DNA of 64,000 bases from Candidatus Chlorohelix allophototropha. GTDB lineage: Bacteria > Chloroflexota > Chloroflexia > Chloroheliales > Chloroheliaceae. Location: the NCBI RefSeq assembly GCF_030389965.1, contig NZ_CP128399.1:1602934-1666933 (forward strand), written 5' to 3'. The notes beneath the pieces were generated by a model. That model saw only the letters and a list, made by a program, of their open reading frames with translations. It was not told the origin of the DNA and did not search any database. This document shows positions 668 through 5,359 of the stretch, piece by piece (within the stretch, counting starts at the first letter, position 1; each line of letters starts with the position of its first letter). The position numbers and the translations under genes were made by a program.

Positions 668-789
668 GCTGCCTTGCGCTGTTTGATTTGCTCCAAGTTC
701 TGGTAAGATATATTCAGCGTGCTACTATCGTTGTTTTGTAGTACCAAAATATATTTTGAATGATTCAAGCTCGAACGAAGGAGTTTACG

Positions 790-1011
790 ATGAGTTGGGA
801 TGACCGTGAAGATAACACTATATATAAAGTAGTAATGAACCATGAAGAGCAGTATTCAATTTGGCCTGCCTACCGCGAAAATGCTTTAGGCTGGAGCGAT
901 GTTGGGAAATCGGGTACTAAACAGGAGTGCCTTGATTATATCAAGGAGGTGTGGACGGATATGCGTCCGCTTTCATTGCTTCAGAAGATGGAAGAACAAA
1001 CCGAGGGCTGA
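790..1011 (+). CDS. MbtH-like protein
   Basis: MbtH-like proteins are small chaperone-like partners that bind and activate adenylation domains of nonribosomal peptide synthetases. This 73-residue protein carries the family signature: [10 protein letters not shown], then GW, then [17 protein letters not shown], with the three conserved Trp at residues 25, 35 and 55. The start is set at the ATG at 790, which has an aaggag site 6 nt upstream; an in-frame upstream ATG at 760 lacks one. A bidirectional terminator follows. No synthetase or adenylation domain is encoded anywhere in this window, so its partner must be elsewhere or it is an orphan. Its place next to a GG-leader peptide gene is unusual. 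Confidence 0.92.
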
Positions 1012-2657: not shown

Positions 2658-2996
2658 TTAATGACCGCCAATACCTCCCATACTTCCTGGATTCAGATTG
2701 CCGGGGTTTATTGCTGAGTTGCCCCTAATGTTCCTGGAACCCCACGATATTGTAACACTCCCGCCGCCGGCAACTTGGTCGAGTGCCTCATCGGGAAGTT
2801 CACCGCTTGCGCCGGGAGCAATACGTGTGGACCCAGCAGCGATGAGTTCTTCGGAAGTGAAGGAATAGCCGTTTTCGGCAGCTAAAGCGACAACAACGTC
2901 CGCTGAAATGTTATTACCCAGAGAGACAACCTTGCTTCTCAATGCATCATCCTTGTCCATGTTTTCCAGAAACTCGCTTGCAGCTTGTTCAGACAT
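2658..2996 (-). CDS. Nif11-like leader RiPP precursor peptide
   Basis: The 112-residue product has a Nif11-type leader: an N-terminal helical region starting SEQAASEFLENMDKDDALR, then DVVVALAAENGYSFTSEEL, and a GG cleavage motif ELPDEALDQVAGG ending at residue 78. The predicted core (residues 79-112) is Gly/Asn/Ser-rich without Cys, with one Trp, one C-terminal His and the near-repeat NPGNLNPG. Nif11-leader precursors feed lanthipeptide, radical SAM and related modification enzymes. Here the only such enzyme is the B12 radical SAM protein encoded 350 bp upstream on the same strand, so C-methylation or a related modification of the core is inferred. The lack of Cys argues against lanthionine chemistry. 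A good ribosome site (aaaggag) precedes the ATG. Confidence 0.88.
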   Translation of the reverse strand: MSEQAASEFLENMDKDDALRSKVVSLGNNISADVVVALAAENGYSFTSEELIAAGSTRIAPGASGELPDEALDQVAGGGSVTISWGSRNIRGNSAINPGNLNPGSMGGIGGH

Positions 2997-3347
2997 AATA
3001 GGTCTCCTTTCAAGTTGGTATAACGATTGATGTTACAACAATAACTTTAATGCTCTATTAAATTAGGGTTATTGCCCTAGAAAGCTACAATTTGCAGACG
3101 ATATTAGAAAACGAACAATTATTGTAAAAAAGCGAAGGGACTAAGCGATGTGATTTAAGTTAATAGAATTACTCAAAAAAACGCCAGAAAAGTTGGATAT
3201 GACTGTTTTGATATAAAGCTTGAAATATTACTATAAGATGTCGAGATTACACCTACAAACCTCTTGTAGTGTAGCAAAGAATCTAGAACTTAAAGGTTAA
3301 GAATTTGTAAAAAAACTCTTGGTTGATCAGCTATATTAGGTGTTTGC
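2997..3347 (-). other. Enzyme-precursor intergenic region with two hairpins
   Basis: This AT-rich stretch has no gene. It holds a hairpin at 3248-3273 (CTACAA/TTGTAG, extended by four more pairs around a bulge) about 75 nt past the stop of the radical SAM gene, and a smaller TAGGG-N6-CCCTA repeat at 3064-3079 in the likely promoter region of the precursor. No convincing -35/-10 pair was found, so whether the precursor is transcribed separately is open. A hairpin between enzyme and precursor could set different expression levels. Confidence 0.45.
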
Positions 3348-5297
3348 TTAAGCTTTCTGCCGCAACCCTATCGGAAGAATTTTATCCAGCAGCATGTCAG
3401 ATGTTTCGGCTACCGGAAGCGCGAGACTTAGGAAAAAACTCCCATCTTGCATCATCAGTCCTTTTTCACAGAATTCCAGCAACTTTGCTCTAACTTGAGA
3501 ATCTGTTTCTTTAAGGTTCAGGCTCGTTTTCAAGGCTAGAGAAGAATGGGGCTTTTCGCTGCATGCATGATATAGCAGGGCATAGGACTCATCAAAATTA
3601 TACTCAATTGGGTTGGAGCGGTCTCGCCTGTCAAAAATTTGCAACTCCCCAGAGTTTATGCGAAACCGCAAACTGGGCAATTCCTGCGGATTTTGCCAAG
3701 CTGTATTCCACTGTTCCACCTGATTGTTTAATTCCTCATAGGCTTTTAAGGGAAGGGATTGCTCAAACTCGTAATCAAAAAAGTAAGCTATCCGGTTCAG
3801 GTCTATGGTTTCGGGATAAGCCAATGCATAACTGGCATCCGGGCGCATGAATCGGGTTGGGAAATTCTCCCGTTCAGTGTAACTGGGGCTAAAACGCTGC
3901 AGCCACATCCGGGTTGCTATTGTAGGCGGTTCTAAATGAAACAGCTTTGACATCAGCGCAGCTTGCTGCCGGTAATCTTCCTCCGTCTCTCCGGGGAAGC
4001 CCCAGATAATTTGCCATGCCACATGTATCCGGTAGTATTTCGCCCAACGCAGCGTGTTTACATTCTGGATTCCGGTAATCCCTTTCCTCATCAGTTGCAG
4101 CACATGGCTGTTAAGGGATTCGATTCCGGGTTGGATTTGATTTATACCCGCATCCTTAAATTTTTTGATTTGACCCCTTGATTGATTGGCTTTTACCTCA
4201 TAAAATAAATTAAATTTGGTAGGCAATGCAGCAAGTCGGCTCAGGTATGTGTCAGCTTCCTTGTAATCTAGGATACTGTCGGTTGCTCCCAAACAGAAAT
4301 GGGGGTAACCGGATAACTCAGATAATTCTTCCAGCACCCGATCAATAGATTTCTTGCGATAATCAATTCCCATTCCATTTAACCCGCAGAAGGAGCAATG
4401 GCGCTTATGCCCCCACCAACATCCCCGCGAACTTTCAAACGGTAGCGAAATCTCGCCCAAAAATTTATCGGTGAGCAATTCAAGGGCATGGGCGCGTTCA
4501 AAATACTCGGTAAAATCGGGGGTGGGCAACTCATCTAGTTCCCGTAGAAGGGGGCGGTTTCTAGGAGTGGTAATTTGCCCGTTGCGTTTGCAGACCACAC
4601 TTGGAATGTTTGCCGGGTCTTTGCCTTCCTGCAATGCCTGTAAAAATTCTGGGAATGCTTTATCTCCCTCTCCTATCACGGCATAATCTATAAAGTCTAG
4701 GGCACGTACTAGTTCAATGCCCATTTCCCCTTCAAAATTCGCCCCTCCAAAAATCAGGGTGATGTTAGGGTAGCGACTTTTTAGGGCGCGCGCGAGGGCA
4801 AAGGAGGCACAGTTTTGTTGAAAAGTGGTGGTAAAGCCGACCACTTGGAAATTATGCCAAGCTATATTTTCAACCAACTTCTCGATATAGAGGGGGGCTT
4901 CTATGCGCCGAATTTCCACCAACCGCTCCACCGTTATGTTTGCTTCCGCGGTTACTGCGCCAACAATGGCTGAATATATTTCGGGGAAAGTGTCATTCTG
5001 GTCAGGGCTGGCATCCCCAAATGCGGCAAGTGAAAACAACCACTCTCCCAATACGGGGATGATGGTTTGACTGAGACAGTAATAAGGCTCTAAACCGATT
5101 TGTTTGGCGAAGTCTAGGTTTAAATGAAAGGTGGTGGTTGGAAAGCCGTGTGCTTCTGCAATTGACTTTAGCAAGCCGATTTGCAGCGAAGGTCTTTTAA
5201 ACTGTGCAAAAGGCATGGTTACCAACGCTACTGAGAGCTTTTTGCTTTCTGCCGATTCTACAACGTTATCTTCAATTTGAGTGAAATCTTGGTTCAT
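3348..5297 (-). CDS. B12-binding radical SAM protein, RiPP maturation type
   Basis: A 649-residue enzyme. Residues about 23-70 (SVALVTMPFAQFKRPSLQIG) and 150-230 (VVGFTTTFQQNCASFALARA then LIFGGANFEGEMG) form the cobalamin-binding-like region. The radical SAM core begins at ESSRGCWWGHKRHCSFCGLN, with the Fe-S ligands at C293, C301 and C304. This CX7CX2C spacing, rather than the standard CX3CX2C, is typical of the RiPP maturation radical SAM protein 1 family (TIGR03975). Members of that family act on GG-leader peptides, some as C-methyltransferases. The Nif11-like precursor lies downstream on the same strand, which fits an enzyme-substrate pair. The B12-binding motif DxHxxG of classic corrinoid proteins is not visible, as is usual in this subgroup. 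Exact chemistry cannot be told. Confidence 0.92.
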   Translation of the reverse strand: MNQDFTQIEDNVVESAESKKLSVALVTMPFAQFKRPSLQIGLLKSIAEAHGFPTTTFHLNLDFAKQIGLEPYYCLSQTIIPVLGEWLFSLAAFGDASPDQNDTFPEIYSAIVGAVTAEANITVERLVEIRRIEAPLYIEKLVENIAWHNFQVVGFTTTFQQNCASFALARALKSRYPNITLIFGGANFEGEMGIELVRALDFIDYAVIGEGDKAFPEFLQALQEGKDPANIPSVVCKRNGQITTPRNRPLLRELDELPTPDFTEYFERAHALELLTDKFLGEISLPFESSRGCWWGHKRHCSFCGLNGMGIDYRKKSIDRVLEELSELSGYPHFCLGATDSILDYKEADTYLSRLAALPTKFNLFYEVKANQSRGQIKKFKDAGINQIQPGIESLNSHVLQLMRKGITGIQNVNTLRWAKYYRIHVAWQIIWGFPGETEEDYRQQAALMSKLFHLEPPTIATRMWLQRFSPSYTERENFPTRFMRPDASYALAYPETIDLNRIAYFFDYEFEQSLPLKAYEELNNQVEQWNTAWQNPQELPSLRFRINSGELQIFDRRDRSNPIEYNFDESYALLYHACSEKPHSSLALKTSLNLKETDSQVRAKLLEFCEKGLMMQDGSFFLSLALPVAETSDMLLDKILPIGLRQKA

Positions 5298-5359
5298 ATA
5301 ACCTCCTGAACAGATTCTACAAAGAAAATGCGATTGGTTTGAAAGGTTTAAGCCAACTT

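Follow-up and report, generated by a model that had tools for sequence, protein, structure and literature searches.

PoyC methylates the Cβ of Ile and Val (PMC11285071), and PoyB and PoyC have jointly been assigned to Met, Gln, Ile, Thr, and Val (PMC5682303). The CX7CX2C motif is unusual and has been pointed out in both PoyC and the bottromycin methylases (PMC5682303), and the RREs of proteusins have been described as C-terminal fusions (PMC7470986). Stand-alone LanM domains are also known: PoyF, a dehydratase of polytheonamide biosynthesis, acts on the same residue that PoyC methylates, and EmbM of the phospeptin system is a Thr kinase with a Nif11 peptide as its substrate (PMC9505594).

The locus described here lies in a 64-kb stretch of DNA (the window; C1:1602934-1666933) from ‘Candidatus Chlorohelix allophototropha’ L227-S17. 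The source assembly comprises 6,086,194 bases in five contigs (C1, 2,961,161 bases; C2, 2,453,413 bases). The genome is closed and consists of two chromosomes (2.96 and 2.45 Mb), a 375-kb chromid, and two plasmids (241 and 55 kb; PMC10972752), so that gene absences carry weight. On the minus strand, where all features of the locus lie, the gene for a 649-aa enzyme (3348-5297) is followed 351 bp downstream by the gene for a 112-aa peptide (2658-2996). A first-pass annotation had paired these two open reading frames as a RiPP locus, and its coordinates, strand, motifs, and gene order were reproduced, except that it put the gap at 350 bp.

The enzyme matches TIGR03975, the family of B12-dependent radical SAM RiPP C-methyltransferases, at 606 of 606 profile positions (603 bits, cut-off 281.85; 6.2e-181), in agreement with the first-pass assignment, and its gene is the sole one in the closed genome above that cut-off. 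It contains a cobalamin-binding domain (residues 114-218, 4644-4958; PF02310, 35 bits, cut-off 32.1) and a radical SAM core (residues 289-443, 3969-4433; PF04055, 61 bits, above cut-off). The CX7CX2C motif is formed by C293, C301, and C304 (4386-4421) within SSRGCWWGHKRHCSFCG, and these Cys residues are unchanged in the 11 relatives compared. The fold of the AF2 model (pLDDT 78.9) matches those of TokK, TsrM, OxsB, and CysS in a Foldseek search. A strong Shine-Dalgarno sequence, AGGAGG, precedes the gene (5302-5307). Compared by description, PoyC and PoyB likewise have B12 and radical SAM domains, CX7CX2C, and a RiPP substrate. Family membership makes C-methylation at an unactivated carbon the probable activity.

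The final 90 residues of the enzyme adopt a bbb-aaa-bb fold in the AF2 model (pLDDT 94.6), and residues 541-628 (3414-3677) form a PqqD-like winged helix, a probable leader-binding RRE. Alignment of the C-terminus by hhalign to a PqqD profile, built for this analysis from 10 Chloroflexota sequences rather than taken from 5SXY/3G2B, gave a probability of 95.8% over 76 columns; controls (other segments and column shuffles) reached at most 1.8% against the same profile. RREs are recognized at a PqqD profile match of at least 80% (PMC7470986), and the C-terminus exceeds this value with the home-built 10-sequence profile. The best Foldseek matches of the domain were just generic winged helices, and searches of Pfam and of PDB sequences with it returned nothing useful. 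Its C-terminal position is that described for proteusin RREs (PMC7470986). The modeled domain suggests that the enzyme binds the leader by itself.

The peptide matches the Nif11 leader model TIGR03798 over the full profile, positions 1-68 (47.9 bits, cut-off 32.3; 1.2e-12), and Pfam Nif11 (44.8 bits, cut-off 23.8); among leader models it matches TIGR03798 alone and not the proteusin (NHLP) model TIGR03793. By this match and by leader comparison, the leader comprises residues 1-78 (2763-2996) and ends in LPDEALDQVAGG, with AGG at residues 76-78 and the GG site at 77-78. The predicted core of 34 residues (2661-2762), GSVTISWGSRNIRGNSAINPGNLNPGSMGGIGGH, contains 9 Gly, 5 Asn, and no Cys. The GG-site leader and the Cys-free, Gly/Asn-rich core that had been read from the DNA alone are thus borne out. 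The core without Cys and the lack of a LanC gene anywhere in the genome set the peptide apart from the lanthipeptides.

A strong Shine-Dalgarno sequence, AAGGAG (3004-3009), precedes the peptide gene. The 351-bp gap holds a promoter-like site, TTTACA-16-TAATAT (3101-3128), which may drive the peptide gene separately; the promoter scan found such sites no more often than expected by chance. Past the peptide gene is a terminator-like hairpin (2577-2620; −20.4 kcal/mol, z −3.5) followed by UCUUAUUU, and an Rfam scan of the first 12 kb of the window returned no RNA family. Elsewhere in the window, a 69-aa GG-type peptide, LSDEALDNVSGG, with Cys in the core and no Nif11 domain, is encoded beside an MbtH gene (458-667 and 760-1011, plus strand). 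This MbtH gene is the only one in the genome, and the main NRPS condensation-domain cluster lies 0.75 Mb away at C1:846-859 kb.

TIGR03975 is rare in Chloroflexota (10 of 400 genomes); a search of four same-family genomes found it in three (L030-L032). In all three, a Nif11 gene lies directly upstream of the orthologous enzyme gene on the same strand, with a gap of 20-84 bp; the enzymes are 53-54% identical to the window enzyme, and the clade has support of 100/98. The window locus differs in its reversed order, peptide after enzyme, and its wider gap. Protein families and this preserved adjacency together back the RiPP reading and the probable C-methylation proposed by the first-pass annotation, which had taken relatives without a GG-leader peptide as grounds for abandoning it. 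That description is false for the same-family genomes and true only of distant relatives: a Nif11-like match was found near the enzyme in 0 of 45 Nitrospirota/Nitrospinota-type loci. This is very probably a RiPP locus, and the two genes probably make up a real, functional module, judging from their sequences. We consider it likely that the adjoining Nif11 peptide is the substrate of the enzyme.

Outside the family, the neighbors of the enzyme vary. In Ktedonobacteria-like and other Chloroflexota the enzyme is accompanied by small peptides of other kinds whose ends are Val-rich, for example GHGVGVAVIW, and in Actinomycetota relatives the gene immediately upstream encodes a small protein with a leader from an unnamed family; the members submitted gave no NCBIfam match apart from marginal, unrelated ones. 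A leader family with the pattern RIT..DI..L..KL..F...L...E, apparently absent from NCBIfam, adjoins TIGR03975 enzymes in several phyla (L048:5681-5980, L049:5621-5950, L053:2290-2649, L061:5508-5819, and L069:7860-8638). TIGR03975-family genes are also widespread across Nitrospira genomes, with no Nif11-like peptide near them (L075-L121). The precursors seen with TIGR03975 members include pheganomycin-type, CefA (Cys at every fifth position), and Os1348 peptides and those with unnamed leaders. The enzyme family thus appears to work with many leader types, and the tree places the Nif11 pairing in at least two separate clades.

The first-pass annotation had stressed the Gly/Asn-rich NPGNLNPG portion of the core, an emphasis that the relatives do not sustain. 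The cores of L030-L032 have 12-15 residues and are V/I/T-rich (KVTITIEF, SISITITIKF, and KISITVTIKF); none of the relatives' cores has an NPGNLNPG-like part, and what they have in common is V/I/T-rich strands with an aromatic residue at the end. An NHLP peptide beside L063 contains VSVSWG, and rhizobial Nif11 peptides have poly-Val cores. Within the window core, SVTISW (2742-2759) alone resembles the cores of L030-L032 and L063. Because the relatives lack NPGNLNPG and share these strands, SVTISW is, on sequence comparison, the likelier and a plausible target. The window core is nonetheless the least typical of the four, with 34 residues, one Val, and a V/I/T score of 3 of 8 versus 6 in the three closest relatives. 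A score of at least 5 was obtained for 11 of 25 enzyme-adjacent peptides (9 of Nif11/NHLP/Os1348 type and 16 with other leaders, some from near-duplicate loci, chosen by leader or adjacency though partly after the cores had been seen) versus 2.4% of ordinary C-termini. Alternating V/I/T residues with an aromatic end were considered as an enzyme-specific substrate mark and rejected as unspecific, since 8 of 11 Nif11 peptides encoded away from the enzyme score at least 4 and the window core scores 3; the pattern is a trend only. By analogy, the PoyC-like CX7CX2C motif, the V/I/T-rich cores of the closest relatives, and the rhizobial poly-Val cores make Cβ methylation of Val/Ile the most likely reaction.

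No C39 domain is encoded within the window; all those of the genome lie outside it. The one strong C39 gene is on chromosome 2 (C2:230-236 kb), where it matches TIGR03796 and has neighbors matching TIGR03797 and TIGR03794, and this is the single complete NHLP exporter of the genome. The earlier statement that an exporter/peptidase is missing thus holds for the window and not for the cell, and leader removal after GG with export in trans would be the natural course. The exporter region (L025:1794-8939; C2:225.8-232.9 kb) includes an ABC2 subunit with ~700 extra N-terminal residues that look FHA-like by eye.

Counting the window peptide, the genome has 11 TIGR03798 matches, of which 8 exceed the cut-off. 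A locus at C1:751-755 kb (L022) combines a Nif11 paralogue (C1:754 kb) with a LanM dehydratase domain (DUF4135) without a cyclase and an aldo-keto reductase. The trio (L022:3327-6739) recurs in a second genome, G004 (L149:7315-11082), is conserved in two genera, and is a candidate PoyF- or phospeptin-like RiPP locus. Five Nif11 peptides are encoded in tandem at L020:7427-9557 (C1:2007.4-2009.6 kb), three with cores starting (I/L)NPQPL, and no modifying enzyme is obvious nearby. A pair of short Nif11-like proteins (L021:6798-7073 and L010; C1:2912.8-2913.5 kb) ends in EKRVS.(G/A).F(R)(L/V)GP without GG and is conserved in relatives (L144, L147, and L148).

The leader of the window peptide resembles that of the LanM-associated paralogue (47%) more closely than the leaders next to the relatives' enzymes (37-41%). 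Cross-talk between the two loci is possible, judging from the leaders, because this nearest leader adjoins a LanM domain without a cyclase and such domains are known to stand alone in PoyF and EmbM. In an alternative that we regard as unlikely, the enzyme would methylate several Nif11 peptides in trans and the window peptide would primarily be a substrate of the LanM-type dehydratase/kinase, the two working jointly or in parallel in the manner of PoyF and PoyC. The leader similarity, T-I/S-R-N-S elements shared by the cores (GSVTISWGSRN and ATIYISRNSV), a dehydratase in a genome devoid of LanC, the action of PoyF on the residue methylated by PoyC (PMC9505594), and a single exporter common to 11 peptides all point toward this arrangement; against these stand a leader tree that lacks resolution, a distance of 0.85 Mb between the loci, and the few core Ser/Thr in a clear dehydration context. 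We are likewise doubtful of a broader scheme, a dispersed combinatorial polytheonamide-like toolkit working in trans, with a PoyC-like methylase, a PoyF/EmbM-like LanM with an aldo-keto reductase, 11 Nif11-type precursors, and an NHLP exporter on the other chromosome; if real, it would operate in a type-I-reaction-centre phototroph.

The enzyme might also act on the adjoining peptide by a reaction other than simple Cβ methylation, such as iterative methylation, the placing of a methyl group on Trp, Asn, or Gly, or other B12-radical SAM chemistry. The very different precursors that accompany TIGR03975 members and the broad joint assignment of PoyB and PoyC (PMC5682303) allow for this; the cores of the nearest relatives, composed almost solely of V/I/T/S with an aromatic end, make it quite improbable. 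An accidental or decayed adjacency, with a non-peptide or unlinked substrate, would fit the distant relatives devoid of nearby Nif11-like peptides and the gene order unlike that of the nearest relatives. Random placement of the sole TIGR03975 gene within 351 bp of a Nif11 locus on the same strand has P ~0.0015 (based on the 7 merged Nif11 loci of the source genome), the pair is kept in three same-family genomes, and the enzyme carries a PqqD-like, probably leader-binding domain, all of which render such coincidence extremely improbable.

For the preferred reading, modification of the adjoining peptide by Cβ methylation, we propose a mechanism that, taken in full, seems reasonably probable. The Nif11 leader would be bound through the C-terminal PqqD-like domain, and a 5′-deoxyadenosyl radical generated at the CX7CX2C [4Fe-4S] cluster would abstract the Cβ hydrogen of a β-branched residue, with Val81 and/or Ile83 of SVTISW as the likeliest sites. 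Methylcobalamin would then donate the methyl group, as in the valine reaction of PoyC. Cleavage after GG would release the core for export by the one NHLP-type system, encoded on chromosome 2 (HlyD, C39 peptidase-ABC, and ABC), which is predicted to serve every GG-type Nif11 peptide of the cell.

With this module, a Chloroflexota order represented in enrichment culture by its founding member gains a probable Cβ-methylating B12 radical SAM enzyme together with a small Nif11 substrate. The system is minimal, comprising one enzyme with its own putative leader-binding domain and one 112-residue peptide; together with the short-core orthologues (12-15 residues), it would be convenient for studying how PoyC-type enzymes choose among Val/Ile sites, and the same systems would be convenient for asking whether scattered enzymes modify Nif11 peptides in trans.

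The combination, which the first-pass annotation had thought uncharacterized, is not new: existing annotations of rhizobial plasmids already pair Nif11 with TIGR03975, along with a PoyD-type epimerase and in one case (Mesorhizobium) a complete NHLP exporter, so that the locus adds a member to a known type of system. In S. meliloti pHRB800, Mesorhizobium sp. L-2-11, and R. leguminosarum, as in the window, a Nif11 precursor lies beside TIGR03975, and the exporter is of the same type; the rhizobial enzymes are 33-36% identical to the window enzyme and fall in another clade of the tree, and their clusters, unlike the window locus, have poly-Val/Ala cores and an epimerase. A search of the source genome for the PoyD-type epimerase (TIGR04517) gave no match, and the control genomes were silent too. 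The rhizobial precursors with poly-Val C-termini, AEAVVTVVVVVV, beside epimerase and TIGR03975 genes (L131:1217-3494, L151:2063-2452, and L152:3119-3478) are candidates for heavily C-methylated peptides rich in D-residues. The Chloroflexota MAGs L030-L032 share the orthologous enzyme and the adjacent Nif11 gene with the window and differ from it in the upstream, closely spaced peptide gene with its short core. In the polytheonamide system, the leader is of the NHLP type and epimerase, N-methyltransferase, and dehydratase genes are clustered, whereas the window has a Nif11 leader and no adjacent tailoring gene. Compared with the prochlorosins, which are Nif11 lanthipeptides, the window has no LanM beside the peptide, no Cys in the core, and no cyclase in the genome; like them, the source genome combines many dispersed Nif11 precursors with few enzymes and a presumably shared exporter.
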